DNA from: Martinezella rhizogenes
GTDB lineage: Bacteria > Pseudomonadota > Alphaproteobacteria > Rhizobiales > Rhizobiaceae
Assembly: GCA_013322215.1 (NCBI GenBank)
Contig: JAAMEZ010000050.1
Location: 1-64,000 of the forward strand
DNA length: 64,000 nt
Direction: 5' to 3'
This document shows positions 29,719-37,809 of this stretch, in pieces. Positions within the stretch are counted from its first letter, which is position 1. The number at the start of each line of letters is the position of its first letter. Both the position numbers and the translations under genes were made by a program. The notes under the pieces were generated by a model, which was not told the origin of the DNA, searched no databases, and saw nothing but the letters and a program-made list of their open reading frames with translations.

Positions 29719-32298
29719 ATGTTTGAAGGGGAAGACAACCTGCATCGACCAGCGCTACGCCAAGCGGCGGCGCAGTTGCTGCGGGGCCGTGCAGATCGGC
29801 TTTCGGCGGGAGCGAAGCGCGGCAAAGGCCGGCTGGCCTCCTTTAGCCGCCTGCTGCGGTTCAGCGTTTTCGGCGGTCTCGTGACCGGCTTGGCGGGTCC
29901 CGTTTTCGCGCAGAGCAATGATGCCGCGCAGACGAGCATGCGCCTCTTCACCTCCTCGGAAATGGCCGTCTTCTCCGTCATCATCGGCGTCATCTCCGCT
30001 GCACTCCTCTCGACCATGTGGATGGTCCGCCAGCGCGGCAATATGGAGAATGAAAGCCGCGAGATCCGCACAGCGCTCTCCGATGCCAATCAGCGCATTT
30101 CGCAATATCAGGCGCTGATCGCTGACAAGAACCGCCGCATCGTCATCTGGGACGGCCAGAATGCGCGGCCGGAACTGCTCGGACAGCTTCCGATCGAGAC
30201 TGGCGCGCCACAAGACAACGAATTCCTCGCCTTCGGCCGCTGGCTGAAATCATGGTCGGCCGGCGAACTCGACAAGGCGATCGACAAGCTGCGCGGTAGC
30301 GGCCAGAGCTTCGACATGGTGGTCGAAACCAACCGCGACGAAATTCTGGAAGCGCAGGGCCGCATTTCCGGCGGGCGCGCTTTTGTCCGCTTCATCGCGC
30401 TCAACAATCTGCGCGCGGAACTCGCCGAGCTGAAGATCGAGCGCGACCGGCTGATGACATCGATCTCCACCTTCCAGAACCTGCTTGATGCCATCGACCT
30501 GCCGGTCTGGCAGCGCGATGCGGAAGGCACGCTCACCTGGGTCAACCAGGCTTATGGCGAAGCGGTGGAAGCAGTTTCGACCGATGAGGCCGTGCGAGAA
30601 GGACGGGAATTCCTGACGACCGTGACCCGCGAGCGCATTCGCGCCGCCACCACGCCTGAATCGCCGTTCCACGACAAGATCTCGACCGTCGTCCATGGCA
30701 ACCGCACCTTCTTCGACGTCGTCGACGTCAAAGCCCCGAACGGCTCGGCCGGGATCGCCATCGACGTGTCCGAAGCGGAATCCGTCCGCGCGGAACTCGC
30801 ACGCACGCTGAAAAGCCATGCTGAAACGCTCGATCATCTGGCGACCCCGGTTGCGATCTTCGATGGCGACAGGCGGCTGCAATTCTACAATCAGGCCTTC
30901 GTCCAGCTCTGGGAACTCGACATCGCGTTTCTCGAGAAGCGGCCCGACAACAGCGAGCTTCTAGACAGGCTGCGCAGCGCCAAGAAACTGCCGGAACAGC
31001 TGAGCTGGAAGTCGTGGAAGGACGGCGTCCTTTCCGTCTATCGCGCGCTCGACACGCAGACCGATCTCTGGCACCTGCCGAATGGCCAGATTCTGCGGGT
31101 TTTCGCGACGGCGCATCCGCAGGGCGGCGCCACCTGGGTCTTCGAGAACCTGACCGAGCAGGTCGATCTCGAAACCCGCTACAACACGCTGGTCAAAGTC
31201 CAGGGCGAAACCATCGACCACCTTTCCGAAGGCGTTGCCGTTTTTGGTCCCGATGGCCGCATCCGGCTTTCCAACCCGGCTTTCCGCATTCTCTGGAACA
31301 TCACCGAGGCGCAGGCGAAGCCCGACACGCATATCCAGGCTCTGGCCGAAGCTTGTGCTCCCTCCTACGACCGGCCCGACGGCTGGAAGCGCTTTGCCGA
31401 GCAGATCACCAGCTTTGACGACGAGCGGCCATCCTCGCAAGGGACATTGGAACTCTACTCCAATCTGGTGCTCGACTACGCCGTCATTCCGCTGCCGAAC
31501 GCGCAGACCATGCTGACCTTCGTCAACAAGACTGACAGCGTCCGTGCCGAGCGCGCTCTAACCGAGAAGAACGACGCGCTGCTGAAGGCCGACGAGCTGA
31601 AGAACGATTTCGTCCAGCATGTTTCCTACGAGCTGCGTTCGCCGCTGACTAATATCATCGGCTTCACCGATCTGCTGAAGACGCCGGGCATCGGCTCGCT
31701 GAACGACCGGCAAGCCGAATATATCGACCATATCTCGACCTCCTCCTCGGTACTTCTGACGCTGGTCAACGACATTCTCGACCTCGCGACGCTCGACGCC
31801 GGCATCATGCGGCTGAACTATTCCGAGATCGTGCTTTCCGACCTGCTCGACGAAGTCTCCATGCAGATTGCCGATCGGCTGCAGGAAAGCGGTGTGACGC
31901 TGGAAATTACCGTTCCGGCGCATCTCGGCTCGATCGTTGCCGATCAGCAGCGGCTGAAGCAGATCCTGCTCAAGCTTCTGACCAACGCCGCCAATTTCGC
32001 GCCCGAGGGATCGACGATCTCGCTGAAATGCGGCCGCGAAGGCGCGGATTTCGTCTTCTCGGTCGCAGACAAGGGCCCCGGCATACCGGAAGAGCTGATC
32101 CACAGCGTCTTCAACCGCTTCGCCTCCGGCGGCAAGGGCGGCAAGCGCAGCGGCGCTGGCCTTGGCCTTTCCATCGTCGAAAGCTTTGTCAGCCTGCATG
32201 AAGGCGAGGTTTCGATCGAAAGCCAGCCAGGCAAGGGAACCACGGTCACCTGCCGGATTCCTTCGGCTGAATTGCCCCACTCCGTCGCAGCAGAATGA
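29719..32298 (+). CDS. divL: DivL-like PAS sensor kinase with tyrosine in the H-box
   Basis: An 859-residue membrane protein. Two hydrophobic segments (about residues 50-70 and 82-100) precede a long PAS region: WLPVWQRDAEGT-like, FDGDRRLQFYNQAF and FGPDGRIRLSNPAF mark at least three PAS repeats. The dimerisation helix reads FVQHVSYELRSPLTNIIGF, so the residue aligned with the phospho-accepting histidine is Tyr637. A full ATPase domain follows (DKGPGIPEEL, GAGLGLSIVE). This tyrosine defines DivL of Caulobacter, which regulates the CckA-CtrA cell-cycle pathway through DivK. The symbol is given on that basis. tsaE/amgK overlaps its stop by four bases. Confidence 0.85.
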   Translation: MFEGEDNLHRPALRQAAAQLLRGRADRLSAGAKRGKGRLASFSRLLRFSVFGGLVTGLAGPVFAQSNDAAQTSMRLFTSSEMAVFSVIIGVISAALLSTMWMVRQRGNMENESREIRTALSDANQRISQYQALIADKNRRIVIWDGQNARPELLGQLPIETGAPQDNEFLAFGRWLKSWSAGELDKAIDKLRGSGQSFDMVVETNRDEILEAQGRISGGRAFVRFIALNNLRAELAELKIERDRLMTSISTFQNLLDAIDLPVWQRDAEGTLTWVNQAYGEAVEAVSTDEAVREGREFLTTVTRERIRAATTPESPFHDKISTVVHGNRTFFDVVDVKAPNGSAGIAIDVSEAESVRAELARTLKSHAETLDHLATPVAIFDGDRRLQFYNQAFVQLWELDIAFLEKRPDNSELLDRLRSAKKLPEQLSWKSWKDGVLSVYRALDTQTDLWHLPNGQILRVFATAHPQGGATWVFENLTEQVDLETRYNTLVKVQGETIDHLSEGVAVFGPDGRIRLSNPAFRILWNITEAQAKPDTHIQALAEACAPSYDRPDGWKRFAEQITSFDDERPSSQGTLELYSNLVLDYAVIPLPNAQTMLTFVNKTDSVRAERALTEKNDALLKADELKNDFVQHVSYELRSPLTNIIGFTDLLKTPGIGSLNDRQAEYIDHISTSSSVLLTLVNDILDLATLDAGIMRLNYSEIVLSDLLDEVSMQIADRLQESGVTLEITVPAHLGSIVADQQRLKQILLKLLTNAANFAPEGSTISLKCGREGADFVFSVADKGPGIPEELIHSVFNRFASGGKGGKRSGAGLGLSIVESFVSLHEGEVSIESQPGKGTTVTCRIPSAELPHSVAAE

Positions 32299-33806
32299 CA
32301 GCCTCAAAGAGCAGTATTTCCCTTTTCCTCGCAGATGATGCCGCCACGGCCCAGCTTGGCGAGGACTTGGCGCTGGCATTGAAGGTTGGCGACTGTCTGG
32401 CATTGTCGGGCGATCTCGGGGCAGGCAAATCATCGCTGGCACGCGCGTTGCTGCGGGCCATGGCCGACGATGCCGAACTCGATGTGCCAAGCCCGACCTT
32501 TACGCTCGTGCAATCCTACGAGTTGCGCATTCCCATCTCGCATTTCGATCTCTACCGCCTCGGCGATCCCAGCGAATTGGTGGAACTCGGCTTCGATGAG
32601 GCCCTGCAGACGGGCATCTGCCTCGTGGAATGGCCCGAAATGGCAGAAGGCGAGCTGCCGAAAGAGCGCATCGACCTCAAGCTCACGCATGAGGGCGAAG
32701 GACGGCGGGTCGCGATCACGGCACCGGCCAAACAGATGGCACGCATCGAGCGCGTGCTTGCTATCCGCGCCTTTCTCGATGCGCACGGCTATCGTGGCGC
32801 CCGCAGACGATTCCTCACGGGCGATGCCTCGCTGCGCGCTTACGAATCCGCCTATCCGAAGGATGGGGGGCGCCGTGTGATCCTGATGGATTGGCCAGGC
32901 CTGCCGGAAGGGCCGCCTGTGCTCGATGGCAAGCCCTACCCCAAGGTCGCGCATCTTGCCTGGGACACCTATCCCTTCGTGGCGATCGCCAACATCCTGC
33001 GCGAGAACGGCTTCGCTGCCCCGGAAATCTTCGCGGCGGACTACGACCAGGGCATTCTTCTGATCGAGGATCTCGGCACCGACGGCGTGCTCGACACGCA
33101 AGGAAAACCGATTGCCGAGCGCTATCGCGCCAGCGTCGCCTGCCTCGCACATCTGCACGGTCTTTCCATTCCTCATGATATTCCGGTCACGCCGGACCAC
33201 GTCCATCACATTCCGGATTTCGACCGGACCGCAATGAAGATGGAAGCGCGGCTGCTTCTCGACTGGCATCTGCCCTGGAAGCGCGGCACGCCTGCAAGCG
33301 ACGAGGAACGCGCCGACTATCTGGCGATCTGGGACAAGCTCATCGATCAGCTCGAAGACGCGGAAAAGAACCTGCTGCTGCGCGACATGCATTCGCCTAA
33401 CATCATCTGGCAAGCCCATCAGCAGGGCATAAAGCGCGTCGGCATCATCGATTTCCAGGATGCGATGATCGGCCCGACCTCCTACGACGTCGCCTCGCTG
33501 GTGCAGGATGCGCGGGTGACGATCGAGCGCGATTTGCATGACCAGCTGATGTCAGACTATCTCGCACTGCGCCGTGCCCAGGGCGGCTTCGACGAGGCCA
33601 AATTCCTGAAGAGCTGGGCGATCATGTCGGCGCAGCGCAATTGCAAGCTTGCCGGCCTCTGGGTGCGGCTCTTGCAGCGGGACGGCAAGCCGGGATATCT
33701 GAAGCATATGCCGCGCACGCTCGCCTATCTCGCCATCGCCTTCGAACACGAAGCGCTCGCACCCTTACGCGAATGGTGCGAGAAGACCGGGATAGGTCGG
33801 GCATAG
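32295..33806 (+). CDS. tsaE: Fusion of TsaE (tRNA t6A ATPase) with an AmgK-like sugar kinase
   Basis: A 503-residue two-domain protein. Residues 1 to about 150 are TsaE, the ATPase needed for N6-threonylcarbamoyl-adenosine in tRNA, with the P-loop GDLGAGKSS at 39-47 and SPTFTLVQSY. Residues about 160-503 are an aminoglycoside-phosphotransferase fold resembling AmgK, the anomeric kinase for N-acetylmuramate and N-acetylglucosamine, with LLLRDMHSPNIIW and GIIDFQDAMIGPTSYD. The next gene is a MurU homologue, which supports the AmgK reading because AmgK and MurU act in sequence. The fusion is common in Rhizobiales databases; what the two activities gain from being linked is unknown. Confidence 0.9.
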   Translation: MTASKSSISLFLADDAATAQLGEDLALALKVGDCLALSGDLGAGKSSLARALLRAMADDAELDVPSPTFTLVQSYELRIPISHFDLYRLGDPSELVELGFDEALQTGICLVEWPEMAEGELPKERIDLKLTHEGEGRRVAITAPAKQMARIERVLAIRAFLDAHGYRGARRRFLTGDASLRAYESAYPKDGGRRVILMDWPGLPEGPPVLDGKPYPKVAHLAWDTYPFVAIANILRENGFAAPEIFAADYDQGILLIEDLGTDGVLDTQGKPIAERYRASVACLAHLHGLSIPHDIPVTPDHVHHIPDFDRTAMKMEARLLLDWHLPWKRGTPASDEERADYLAIWDKLIDQLEDAEKNLLLRDMHSPNIIWQAHQQGIKRVGIIDFQDAMIGPTSYDVASLVQDARVTIERDLHDQLMSDYLALRRAQGGFDEAKFLKSWAIMSAQRNCKLAGLWVRLLQRDGKPGYLKHMPRTLAYLAIAFEHEALAPLREWCEKTGIGRA

Positions 33807-33881
33807 CGGACCAAGACCCCGCGACGGCTTTCCGGCCCTGTGCTATGGAAATCAGATAGCGAATTGAGAGTTCGAGACGAA

Positions 33882-34613
33882 ATGACCATCAAGCAAGCCA
33901 TGGTATTGGCCGCGGGGCTTGGAACCCGCATGCGGCCGATCACCGATACCATCCCGAAGCCGCTGGTGAAGATCGCCGGCAAGCCGATGATCGATTATGC
34001 GCTGGATGCCCTGGCGGAAGCCGGAGTCGAGCAGGTCGTCGTCAATGTCCATCACCATGCCGACCAGATGGAAGCGCATCTGCGCGGCTACCGCAAACTG
34101 GACATCCTGATCTCGGATGAGCGGGACGCGCTTATGAATAATGGCGGTGGGTTGGCCAAGGGATTGAAGCTCCTCGGCCGTGATCCCGCTTTCGTCATGA
34201 ATTCGGATCTCTTCTGGATTGGGGAAAAAGAAGGCCAACCGACGAACCTTGATCGCTTAGCCGGATTCTTCGACGTGGATCACATGGACCTTGGTATGCT
34301 CTGCGTGGCGTTAGAGAAGACGACAGGCCACAACGGCAAGAATGATTTCAGCATGGCTGAGGATGGTCGTCTCTCACGCTATAGCGATGTCACCGGCAAC
34401 GGCGTCGTGTATGCCGGCACGTTGGTCATCAATCCGTCGTTTCTCGACGACGCACCAGCTGATGCCTTCAACATCAACACATACTACGACAAGGCGATCG
34501 CCAGGGGCCGGCTCTATGGCACCATGCTTGACGGCCACTGGCTGACCGTTGGCACGCCGGAGGCAGTCGGCGAGGCGGAGGAAACGATCCGGAACTTCCG
34601 GGCGTTTGCGTGA
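33882..34613 (+). CDS. murU: Nucleotidyltransferase, probable N-acetylmuramate-1-phosphate uridylyltransferase
   Basis: A 243-residue sugar-1-phosphate nucleotidyltransferase. The N-terminal signature VLAAGLGTRMRP and the lysine in IPKPLVKIAGKP are intact. Together with the upstream AmgK-like domain it would make UDP-MurNAc from recycled MurNAc, bypassing de novo synthesis and fosfomycin-sensitive MurA. ATG 33882 is chosen over ATG 33840 because the conserved MTIKQAMVLAAG begins there. addB starts four bases after its stop codon. The specificity is inferred from context. Confidence 0.85.
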   Translation: MTIKQAMVLAAGLGTRMRPITDTIPKPLVKIAGKPMIDYALDALAEAGVEQVVVNVHHHADQMEAHLRGYRKLDILISDERDALMNNGGGLAKGLKLLGRDPAFVMNSDLFWIGEKEGQPTNLDRLAGFFDVDHMDLGMLCVALEKTTGHNGKNDFSMAEDGRLSRYSDVTGNGVVYAGTLVINPSFLDDAPADAFNINTYYDKAIARGRLYGTMLDGHWLTVGTPEAVGEAEETIRNFRAFA

Positions 34614-34617
34614 GCCT

Positions 34618-37600
34618 ATGGCGGGCGGACACCGGCAGCGCATTCTGACGATTCCGGCAGGCCTGCCCTTCCTGAAAACCCTTGCGACGGCGCTCTGCGA
34701 TGGCCGACTGACCGAGCATTTCCGTCATGATCCGGACGACCCGCTATCGCTCGCAAAGGTCAGCATCTTCCTGCCGACGCGACGCGCGGCGCGCGTGCTG
34801 CGCTCGGAATTCGTCGATCTGCTCGGCGGCCGCTCCGCCATCCTGCCGGTCATTCGCCCGCTTGGCGAAACCGACGACGACAGCGGCTATTTCGAGGAAG
34901 CCATGCCCGAAACGGCCGATCTGGCGCAGCCGCTTGCCAACACGGCGCGGCTCCTGGAACTGGCGCGGCTGATCCTTGCCTGGCGCAACAAGCTGCCGCA
35001 GATCGTGCGCGACATCCACTCGGATTCGCCGCTCGTGGCACCGGCAAGCCCGGCTGATGCCATTTGGCTCGCGCGCAATCTCGCCGAACTCATCGATTCC
35101 CTTGAAACCGAGGATCGCGAATGGAGCGAGCTTGCCAATCTCAACGCGGAGGATCATGCGCTCTGGTGGCAGCTGACGGCCGAATTCCTGGCGATTGCCA
35201 GCGCCTTCTGGCCGGCGCGCCTCGAAGAGCTCGGCAAGTCCTCACCCGCCCGCAATCGTAATGCCGTCCTGCGCGCTGAGGTGCAGCGGATATCGACCAT
35301 GCGGCATCCCGGACCTGTCATCATTGCCGGTTCGACCGGCTCGGTCCCGGCAACGGCGGAGCTGATCGCCGCGGTCGCCTCGCTGCCACAAGGCGTGATC
35401 GTGCTGCCCGGCCTCGATCTTGCAATGCCCGAAGAGGATTGGCAGCTCGTGGCACCGGAGATATCGATCGGCGAAAGAGCCGATCCGACCACGCGCAGCC
35501 ATCCGCAATATGGCCTCTCACTGCTGCTGAAGCGGTTGCGCGTCACCCGGCGCGATGTCGAAACTGTTACCGAAGCCGCTGATACGATGCGGATGCGGGC
35601 GCAGATCCTTTCGCGCGCGCTGGCACCGGCAAAAGCGACGAGCGGCTGGGGAAGCTGGCGCAAGACGCTTACCGACAACGCGATTGCCGATGCTTTCGCA
35701 GACGTTTCCCTGATCGAGGCATCGAACGAGCGCGAGGAAGCGACCGCAATCGCCATCGCCTTGCGGCTGGCGCTGGAAAAGCCCGGCCGCAACGGCGGCG
35801 AAAGCCAGGCGGCCTTGATCACGCCCGACCGCAATCTCGCCCGACGGGTAACAGCCGAACTTGCCCGCTTCGGCATCACCGCCGACGATTCGGCCGGCAC
35901 GCCGCTGAACGCGACGCCGCAAGGCACGCTGCTGCAATTGCTGCTGGAGGCGTCCCTTCGCCCCGGCGATCCCGTTGCCGTCGTCGCATTGCTGAAACAT
36001 CCGCTTGCTCTGTTCGGCCTGCCGGCGGAAACACACGGGCCGGGCGTCGATGCGCTAGAGATCCTAGCGCTCAGGGGCGGCGTCGCCGATGTCGATATCG
36101 GCAGGCTGGAAGCCCTGCTCGATGACCGCGTGGCAGAGCAGGCCAATGATCGCCATGCGCCGCAATGGCGCAAATCGCTGCCGCCTGAGGCCATCGAGCA
36201 TGCGCGCGCCCTGGCCCAGCGGGTGACGGCCGCCTGCGAACCGTTGGTATCGGCGCTTTCCCTGCCAGCGACGGAGGGGCTTCTCACGCTTTCGGACTGG
36301 GCGGAACGCACCGGCCGCGCCCTTGAAGCCGCCGCCGTCGACGAGCGTAGCAGCTTGGCGGGCCTCTGGTCCGGCGAGGCCGGAGATACGCTTGCCAGCC
36401 TGCTCCGGGACGTCATCGAGACTGATGGCCAGCTCGAAGCCGACGGCGTGCAGTGGATCGACATCATGGCGGCGCTCTGTGTCGGCCAGGCGGTGAAGCC
36501 GCGTGCGCTCAGCCATCCCCGCCTCTTCATCTTCGGTACGCTGGAAGCGCGCCTGCAAAGCGTCGATACGCTGATCCTTGGCGGGTTGAACGAGGGTTCC
36601 TGGCCGGGGCAGACGGCGAACAACCCCTTTATCTCCCGCAGCATGAAGACCGAAATCGGCCTGGAACCACCGGAGCGCCGCATCGGCCAGCTCGCGCATG
36701 ACTTCGAAATGGCGAACGGCACCCGCGACCTGATCTATTCCCGCGCGCTGCGCCAGGGCTCGACGCCGACGGTCGCGTCGCGCTGGCTGCAGCGGCTGAT
36801 CGCACTCGGCGGCAAGGAACTGGAAGAGGACATGAAGGCCCGCGGCGACCAGTATCGCCATTGGGCCGCGATGATCGACGAGGGCGAAAACCAGGCACCG
36901 GCACTGCGCCCTGCGCCAAAGCCGCCCGTGGAATTGCAGCCGAAGAGCTACTCCTTCAGCGAAGTGGGCCGGCTGCGGCGCGATCCCTATTCGATCTATG
37001 CCCGGCGCGTGCTGCGGCTCGATCCGGTCGACCCGTTCAACCGCGATCCCGGCCCGGCCGAACGCGGCACGCTCTACCACAAGATCATCGACCGCTTCAT
37101 CCGCGAGGGGCACGTGGCCGGCACGCCGGATGCGACGCTGGCCATGGATCGGATCATCGCGGATCTCTTCGATGCCGAACGGCTGCCCGTTCATATCGAT
37201 AGCGTCTGGCGCCCGCGTTTCCGCGAAGTCGCACGCGCCTTTCTTGTCTGGGAAGCGGAACGACGGCCCGAAGTGCGCAAAACGGCGACGGAAGTGCCGG
37301 CTGGCGTCGAGATCGAGCCGATCGGTATTCGGCTGACGGGCGTCGCCGACCGCATCGACATCAAGAGCGACAGGGGCGCCGATCTCATCGATTACAAGAC
37401 CGGCTACAATCCCTCACCGCCACAGGCACGCGCGCTGCTCGATCCGCAGCTGGCACTGGAGGCCTATGCGCTGAGGGCTGGCGCCTTCCGCAATATCGGC
37501 ACGCTGGTGCCGGAAAACCTGCTTTACGTGCGGTTGCGACCCGGCGACCGCTTCAAGGTAGACCAGGTCAACAACGAAAATTCCAGCCGTGGCGGCAAGA

Positions 37601-37809
37601 CGGAAACGAAGTCGGCTATGGATCTCGCGCAGGAGTCGATGGATCAGCTGGTGAAATTCGTCTCGCTGCTGCAGTCGGGCGAGAAGGGCTTTTCCTCGCG
37701 GCTGATCCCGGCGCAGCAGTTTGAATATGGCGGCGACTACGATCACCTCGCCCGCGTTTCGGAATGGTCGACGGCGGAAAGCGAGCAGGAAGGCGGCGGC
37801 GATGAGTGA
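34618..37809 (+). CDS. addB: Double-strand break repair protein AddB
   Basis: A 1063-residue AddB of the alphaproteobacterial type. The N-terminal half is a helicase-like scaffold (FLPTRRAARVLRSEF; VIIAGSTGSVPATAEL); I see no standard Walker A motif there. The C-terminal nuclease domain has GTLYHKIIDRF and the catalytic D925-Y-K927 in LIDYKTGYN. The tail after the nuclease motif contains no cysteine, so the Fe-S cluster of Bacillus AddB is absent. With AddA it forms the helicase-nuclease that prepares double-strand ends for RecA. The last eight bases overlap addA. Confidence 0.95.
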   Translation: MAGGHRQRILTIPAGLPFLKTLATALCDGRLTEHFRHDPDDPLSLAKVSIFLPTRRAARVLRSEFVDLLGGRSAILPVIRPLGETDDDSGYFEEAMPETADLAQPLANTARLLELARLILAWRNKLPQIVRDIHSDSPLVAPASPADAIWLARNLAELIDSLETEDREWSELANLNAEDHALWWQLTAEFLAIASAFWPARLEELGKSSPARNRNAVLRAEVQRISTMRHPGPVIIAGSTGSVPATAELIAAVASLPQGVIVLPGLDLAMPEEDWQLVAPEISIGERADPTTRSHPQYGLSLLLKRLRVTRRDVETVTEAADTMRMRAQILSRALAPAKATSGWGSWRKTLTDNAIADAFADVSLIEASNEREEATAIAIALRLALEKPGRNGGESQAALITPDRNLARRVTAELARFGITADDSAGTPLNATPQGTLLQLLLEASLRPGDPVAVVALLKHPLALFGLPAETHGPGVDALEILALRGGVADVDIGRLEALLDDRVAEQANDRHAPQWRKSLPPEAIEHARALAQRVTAACEPLVSALSLPATEGLLTLSDWAERTGRALEAAAVDERSSLAGLWSGEAGDTLASLLRDVIETDGQLEADGVQWIDIMAALCVGQAVKPRALSHPRLFIFGTLEARLQSVDTLILGGLNEGSWPGQTANNPFISRSMKTEIGLEPPERRIGQLAHDFEMANGTRDLIYSRALRQGSTPTVASRWLQRLIALGGKELEEDMKARGDQYRHWAAMIDEGENQAPALRPAPKPPVELQPKSYSFSEVGRLRRDPYSIYARRVLRLDPVDPFNRDPGPAERGTLYHKIIDRFIREGHVAGTPDATLAMDRIIADLFDAERLPVHIDSVWRPRFREVARAFLVWEAERRPEVRKTATEVPAGVEIEPIGIRLTGVADRIDIKSDRGADLIDYKTGYNPSPPQARALLDPQLALEAYALRAGAFRNIGTLVPENLLYVRLRPGDRFKVDQVNNENSSRGGKTETKSAMDLAQESMDQLVKFVSLLQSGEKGFSSRLIPAQQFEYGGDYDHLARVSEWSTAESEQEGGGDE

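Follow-up and report, generated by a model that had tools for sequence, protein, structure and literature searches.

TsaE and an AmgK-type kinase in one reading frame beside murU in Martinezella rhizogenes and its relatives

Introduction

A close described counterpart of the locus reported here is the AmgK/MurU route of N-acetylmuramic acid (MurNAc) salvage, known from Pseudomonas and Caulobacter. In that route the kinase is encoded by a gene of its own; in Caulobacter, amgK and murU are adjacent under separate locus tags. According to the parts of the papers available to us, which is how all sources cited by PMC number are used below, amgK deletions make Caulobacter sensitive to fosfomycin (PMC13046382, PMC11980594) and lead to the accumulation of MurNAc (PMC13046382). 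Here we describe a gene of Martinezella rhizogenes that carries TsaE and an AmgK-type kinase in a single frame, with murU as the next gene. It lies in a stretch of 64,000 nucleotides (positions 1 to 64,000 of contig JAAMEZ010000050.1, forward strand, assembly GCA_013322215.1), to which we refer as the window. As in the described route, the kinase stands beside MurU, both proteins have the same families and active-site residues, and AnmK is present in the genome; unlike in that route, the kinase is not a separate gene.

Two further published loci come close to it. In Agrobacterium tumefaciens, a member of the same family, a transposon screen with fosfomycin points to AnmK, MupP, AmgK (Atu0026) and MurU (Atu0025) (Gilmore and Cava 2022, PMC9790009). 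Atu0026/Atu0025 are probably direct orthologues of the window pair, and Atu0026 should itself be a fused protein, because 85 of 91 genomes of the family carry the fusion; the available text of that paper mentions neither TsaE nor a fusion. In Brucella abortus, BAB1_2102 and BAB1_2103 lie in the bvrR/bvrS operon, which has the gene order of the window from the response regulator to thioredoxin and was found by reverse transcription PCR to form one transcript from bvrR to thioredoxin (PMC9491525). At the corresponding position the Brucella paper names TsaE and a 'mannose-1-phosphate guanylyltransferase' but, unlike our reading of the window, its available part refers neither to a kinase domain nor to MurNAc salvage. 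A review of the tRNA modification N6-threonylcarbamoyladenosine (t6A) treats, in the part available, other fusions only (PMC9654439). We found no description of a TsaE–kinase fusion in the literature searched, which covered few subscription papers.

A single frame with two enzyme domains

The earlier note on this DNA, made from its letters alone, had proposed a TsaE fused to an AmgK-like kinase beside MurU; its span, 32295–34613, covers the fusion and MurU genes together. The proposal is confirmed by one uninterrupted frame of 503 residues and by the domain matches. The relevant features of the window are as follows.

32295–33806, plus strand: TsaE–AmgK fusion gene, a single 503-residue frame with an ATG start and no internal stop
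32295–32738, plus strand: TsaE half, residues 1–148, assigned by profile matches, motif residues and structure alignment
32727–32783, plus strand: predicted single helix, residues 145–163, from the AlphaFold2 model and VIA-align ranges
32748–33803, plus strand: AmgK-type kinase half, residues 152–503, assigned by profile, alignment and fold matches
33381–33401, plus strand: kinase catalytic loop R363-D364-M-H366-S-P-N369, with D386 following, assigned by the invariance of D364, N369 and D386
33882–34613, plus strand: MurU, N-acetylmuramate-1-phosphate uridylyltransferase, assigned by profiles and PDB matches

The TsaE half matches the Pfam TsaE family PF02367 over residues 13–137 (121 bits, cut-off 26.6) and TIGR00150 (109.3 bits, cut-off 60.1), and a genome search returned the fusion as the sole TsaE match in its own genome. 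Its residues G39, G42, G44, K45, E112 and W113 are invariant in 49 of 49 aligned fused proteins, which were drawn from 79 dereplicated ones. We take G39–K45 to be the Walker A motif and E112–W113 to be the conserved E-W pair of TsaE. Both the fold and the nucleotide-binding motifs are those of stand-alone TsaE (YjeE; PDB 1htw, 5np9, 6n9a chain E), from which the window protein differs by its second, C-terminal enzyme. The kinase half matches the Pfam APH domain over residues 174–423 of the fusion (68.2 bits, cut-off 23.2). Here D364, N369 and D386 are invariant in the same 49 proteins, as well as in 17 kinases that include AmgK-type enzymes outside the class; the alignment of these 17, from inside and outside the class, has 32 invariant columns, and one of its members (L087) passes the cut-off of the AmgK model NF045759. 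By analogy with the APH fold, R363–N369 presumably forms the catalytic loop.

We put the probability at roughly 0.82 that the gene encodes two working, chemically independent enzymes of unrelated pathways on one polypeptide, produced by the in-frame merger of neighbours. The TsaE half would serve TsaB/TsaD, the complex responsible for t6A formation on tRNA. The AmgK domain would phosphorylate recycled MurNAc at C1, and MurU would turn the resulting MurNAc-1-phosphate into uridine diphosphate (UDP)-MurNAc, bypassing MurA. On this reading the fusion arose in-frame from genes lying close together in tsaE-amgK-murU-addB, an old cluster of the Alphaproteobacteria; the last TsaE helix would continue as the first kinase helix, and the two activities would be made 1:1 on one chain. 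For this strain we infer both activities and the independence of the two halves.

Identity of the kinase and its partner

Against the NCBIfam AmgK model NF045698, residues 158–497 of the fusion score 207 bits, under the equivalog cut-off of 500; against NF045759 the score is 104 bits (cut-off 550). With NF045698, the 500-bit mark is passed in only 2 of 289 class genomes, so this cut-off is narrow. The window kinase is put forward as AmgK-type, not as an NCBI equivalog. MurU likewise stays under both of its cut-offs, with 215 bits against NF045697 (cut-off 370, reached in 2 of 289 class genomes) and 147 bits against NF045761 (cut-off 250).

Scores of this kind leave room for the idea that kinase and nucleotidyltransferase act mainly on another sugar, such as N-acetylglucosamine (GlcNAc), mannose or heptose, and the name mannose-1-phosphate guanylyltransferase given to the sister gene in Brucella (PMC9491525) points the same way. 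However, the best PDB matches of MurU are solved MurU chains, 4y7t (118.5 bits) and 8hhd (106.7 bits, labelled N-acetylmuramate alpha-1-phosphate uridylyltransferase), with mannose-1-phosphate guanylyltransferases next at 73.6, and the heptose model NF049965 scores about 147 bits less than the MurU models. The genetics in Agrobacterium (PMC9790009) and Caulobacter (PMC13046382, PMC11980594) also argues for MurNAc, so that a different main substrate seems very improbable. The same genetics bears out, in these relatives, the muramic acid salvage and the effect on fosfomycin sensitivity that the earlier note had predicted.

Distribution of the fusion

How widely the fusion is conserved, a question raised in the earlier note, was surveyed after removal of L001 and L041, two copies of the window that enter none of our counts. 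Among 91 genomes of the family, 85 have TsaE and kinase fused in one frame, five have TsaE alone (frames of 140–176 residues) and one has no match. Because the same kind of frame is intact in so many genomes, a local assembly error in the window is excluded. Genus and order relatives (n=41) comprise 37 one-frame fusions, two loci cut short by contig ends and two cases of TsaE alone. In two genomes of the same order, a lone TsaE gene follows that of the histidine kinase, with no kinase or MurU within the 8-kb stretch. The picture differs in the class beyond the order, where TsaE and kinase are separate neighbours at 74 of 89 loci and fused at 11, with no TsaE nearby at the other four. A Sphingomonas record lists separate genes for tsaE, a 'phosphotransferase' and a 'nucleotidyltransferase' with 4-base overlaps. 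Some of these fused or separate states rest on metagenome assemblies, where frameshift errors could occur.

The best 80 of 590 relatives, a sample that favours the order, provide 63 fused and 17 separate named loci. None of the titles of the 17 separate loci belongs to Hyphomicrobiales/Rhizobiales, and two of the 63 fused ones bear only class or phylum names. The closest named relatives of the kinase half in this sample are from Rhizobium sp. ASV20 (93%) and R. lusitanum (89%). Outside the class, 15 AmgK loci differ from the window in having no TsaE within 1.5 kb; MurU was found beside seven of them with the query used here.

Several individual loci deserve mention. In G581 (contig C1:762359-764014) a one-frame fusion has about 50 additional residues within the kinase half. 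Another family genome, G583, has the fusion plus a second AmgK-type kinase elsewhere (contig C49:28096-29046; 35% identity). Fused and separate TsaE/kinase loci occur together in G224 (contigs C38 and C79; L023, L070), which is listed with 5% contamination and may be a mixed assembly. The 3.7-Mb record CP090106.1 (L225) is titled S. meliloti plasmid pSymB; it has this operon and is therefore probably a mislabelled chromosome.

Repeated origin

About seven changes between the fused and the separate state are needed to account for the distribution. In a tree of 170 rows, which kept 6 of 19 loci lacking TsaE and from which near-identical kinases had been removed first, one clade takes in the 69 fused rows of the order, the other 10 fused rows fall elsewhere, and eight changes are counted. 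A hand-picked subset of 59 rows, analysed with kinase and MurU, also needs eight, or seven without L196. This genome belongs to the same order as M. rhizogenes but has a very long branch, and free trees place it away from its order. Holding it with its order gives a tree better by 61.6 log units (p-AU, the p value of the approximately unbiased test, 0.985); we therefore count seven changes rather than eight, and the quick trees evidently were not optimal. Backbone supports are uneven.

A single origin of the fusion was rejected, both with L196 counted among the others (p-AU 0.000213) and with all 26 fused rows placed together (p-AU 0.0000175). Given the predominance of separate genes outside the order, gains seem to make up most of the changes. 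Losses may nevertheless be among them: L030, a separate locus, lies between two fused groups, and there losing the fusion takes as few steps as gaining it a second time. Both states are also found within genus g85, where two genomes are fused and one is separate (L021, L026, L198). Junction peptides vary in length and sequence between origins.

Junction specificity

TsaE and the kinase are in one frame in 100 of 191 pairs across all loci (79 of 164 after dereplication). No other junction examined behaves this way: the histidine kinase–TsaE junction is fused in 0 of 109 pairs (dereplicated 0/91), kinase–MurU in 0 of 197 (0/166) and MurU–AddB in 0 of 167 (0/143). Kinase and MurU are the pair whose fusion would make biochemical sense, yet they are fused in none.

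Can the fusion simply be an accident of gene spacing? A small frameshift could join overlapping operon genes, and the product would be kept merely because TsaE tolerates a C-terminal extension while other junctions do not. Separate TsaE and kinase genes are indeed very close, with a median spacing of 22 bases (counted from the stop codon of TsaE up to the first kinase codon in the alignment), and in 32 of 85 dereplicated separate pairs the start codon shares one base with the stop. Part of the bias may also reflect structural ease: TsaE ends in a helix, whereas MurU begins directly at its nucleotide-binding strand, where a join may be harder. On the other hand, the neighbouring junctions are about as close (medians of 33, 28 and 20 bases for histidine kinase–TsaE, kinase–MurU and MurU–AddB) and have never fused. 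We regard such a fusion without meaning of its own as having not quite an even chance; it is compatible with two independent enzymes on one chain and differs on selection only. The opposite proposal, that tRNA modification and wall salvage are physically linked and that selection for the link explains some seven mergers while equally close neighbours never merged, appears improbable to us.

Eleven of 91 separate tsaE/kinase pairs share a frame (L022, L024, L038 and eight other class loci). In L022, L024 and L038 a single stop lies between the TsaE and kinase matches, like a stage before or after fusion. An internal translation start that would yield free kinase was considered but is not supported: a start codon with a Shine-Dalgarno-like match occurs in 5 of 79 dereplicated junctions, below the 14% of same-gene control windows.

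Predicted structure and predicted shared helix

AlphaFold2, run on 49 fused sequences, gives a model with a mean predicted local distance difference test score (pLDDT) of 94.7, a predicted template modelling score (pTM) of 0.91 and one helix at residues 145–163. In VIA-align, solved TsaE structures align to residues 5–158 (5np9, Z 21.7) and 4–167 (6n9a chain E, Z 20.5) of the fusion. The nearest solved structure to the kinase half is 3csv, a putative aminoglycoside phosphotransferase from Silicibacter sp. TM1040, which aligns to residues 152–503 (Z 35.2, root-mean-square deviation 2.0, 309 aligned residues, 32% identity). It differs from the window protein in being a separate chain under a different label, and it is probably an AmgK. 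These ranges give the first and last aligned residues only. Since the TsaE and kinase ranges overlap, the helix at 145–163 would serve TsaE as its last helix and the kinase as its first, shared between the two halves in the model. The pTM suggests that the relative placement of the halves is confident.

A continuous helix invites the thought of regulatory coupling, in which TsaE docking on TsaB/TsaD, or its ATP cycle, would alter the activity or place of the kinase through the shared helix, or MurNAc occupancy would alter TsaE. The earlier note had suggested that TsaE could regulate the kinase, or else that the fusion could balance the two activities. Besides the helix and the high pTM, coupling could account for fusion at one junction only with about seven changes of state, and for the absence of a listed separate pair from the 91 family genomes. 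But the halves part easily, as the five family genomes with TsaE alone illustrate, and at 74 of the 89 class loci outside the order the genes are still apart. Moreover, the junctions vary in length and sequence between origins, which makes one shared coupling mechanism unlikely. Taken together, we consider coupling a long shot.

Co-occurrence of kinase, MurU and TsaE

A hand tally over the 289 class genomes, raw and without correction for kinship, finds the AmgK and MurU families both present in 199 and both absent in 76, with AmgK only in nine and MurU only in five. The fused query still matches 63 of 81 genomes without an AmgK match, presumably through TsaE. Because only the first candidates were scored per genome (5 for the fused query, 6 for AmgK, 9 for MurU), the absences are not certain. 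The joint presence of AmgK and MurU, together with the genomes that have TsaE only, indicates that the kinase goes with MurU, not with TsaE. MurU was not seen in the examined stretch of L035, L036, L219, L221, L224 and 8 of the 15 loci outside the class.

Genes around the fusion

The window gene order is response regulator, sensor kinase, HPr kinase, IIA, HPr, AhcY, PAS histidine kinase, fusion, MurU, AddB, AddA and thioredoxin. The immediate neighbours of the fusion–MurU pair are:

29719–32298, plus strand: PAS-domain histidine kinase, assigned by domain match and called DivL from the Brucella operon position
34549–37809 (open reading frame as listed), plus strand: AddB, TIGR02786 match of 1222 bits

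The ATG of the fusion overlaps the TGA of the preceding histidine kinase gene (ATGA at 32295–32298). For MurU, the list of open reading frames gives a GTG start at 33840; the conserved domain fits the ATG at 33882, 75 bases past the fusion stop. The ATG at 34618, 4 bases beyond MurU, fits as the start of AddB.

Discussion

Several observations weigh against two independent enzymes that salvage MurNAc on the way to UDP-MurNAc. The kinase and MurU both score under the NCBI equivalog cut-offs. Of the examined junctions only TsaE–kinase fuses, and a rigid shared helix is predicted; either could mean that the fusion matters for function. No separate tsaE/amgK neighbours are listed in the 91 family genomes. 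The best MupP candidate, a haloacid dehalogenase (HAD) phosphatase on contig C45, reaches 88.6 bits against a MupP cut-off of 359, and 179.7 bits on the phosphoglycolate phosphatase model (cut-off 225); none was found next to glmU in this genome, the place of MupP in Caulobacter. A MupP is likely to be present, this phosphatase being a weak candidate for it. Finally, the same genome encodes MurQ (TIGR00274, 421 bits, cut-off 302), a competing route. A lack of MurQ is typical of the AnmK–MupP–AmgK–MurU pathway but does not define it; the absence reported for Caulobacter (PMC11980594) does not hold here.

AnmK (PF03702, 229 bits; NF007141, 491 bits, cut-off 352) lies about 6 kb from MurQ in a cluster for MurNAc use on contig C55 (305000–322000; L047 3738–15575, minus strand). 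Within 17 kb it contains an SLT transglycosylase, AnmK, a beta-lactamase-family protein, a peptide-type ATP-binding cassette (ABC) importer, MurQ, a NagK-like kinase and MurA. The MurA (528.7 bits, cut-off 392.7) is an odd sight, being the fosfomycin target beside MurQ. With MurQ present, MurNAc-6-phosphate can also be broken down, which leaves the magnitude of the fosfomycin effect uncertain for this strain. MurNAc might even be degraded mostly by MurQ, leaving the AmgK branch minor or active only under MurA inhibition, as the grouping of importer, AnmK, MurQ, NagK-like kinase and MurA would suggest. Yet the fusion–MurU pair is conserved in the family regardless, and we find such a subordinate role rather unlikely.

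The salvage pathway and its fosfomycin effect are already known and have been published in relatives. New here are the fusion itself, the data on how common it is and on its recurrent emergence at a single junction, and the prediction of a helix shared by its halves.

In the records and papers examined, the fused protein is named by one half only, so that annotation conceals its kinase half: in two rhizobial records the whole 504-residue protein is entered as TsaE and the gene after it as 'nucleotidyltransferase family protein'. As a result, a MurNAc salvage that blunts fosfomycin is easily missed in rhizobia and their relatives. Transposon insertion sequencing of the fusion gene would be expected to give mixed signals, with 5′ insertions hitting tRNA modification and 3′ insertions hitting only salvage. 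If the repeated, junction-specific fusion does reflect selection, it would offer a direct way to test whether translation fidelity and wall recycling are linked.

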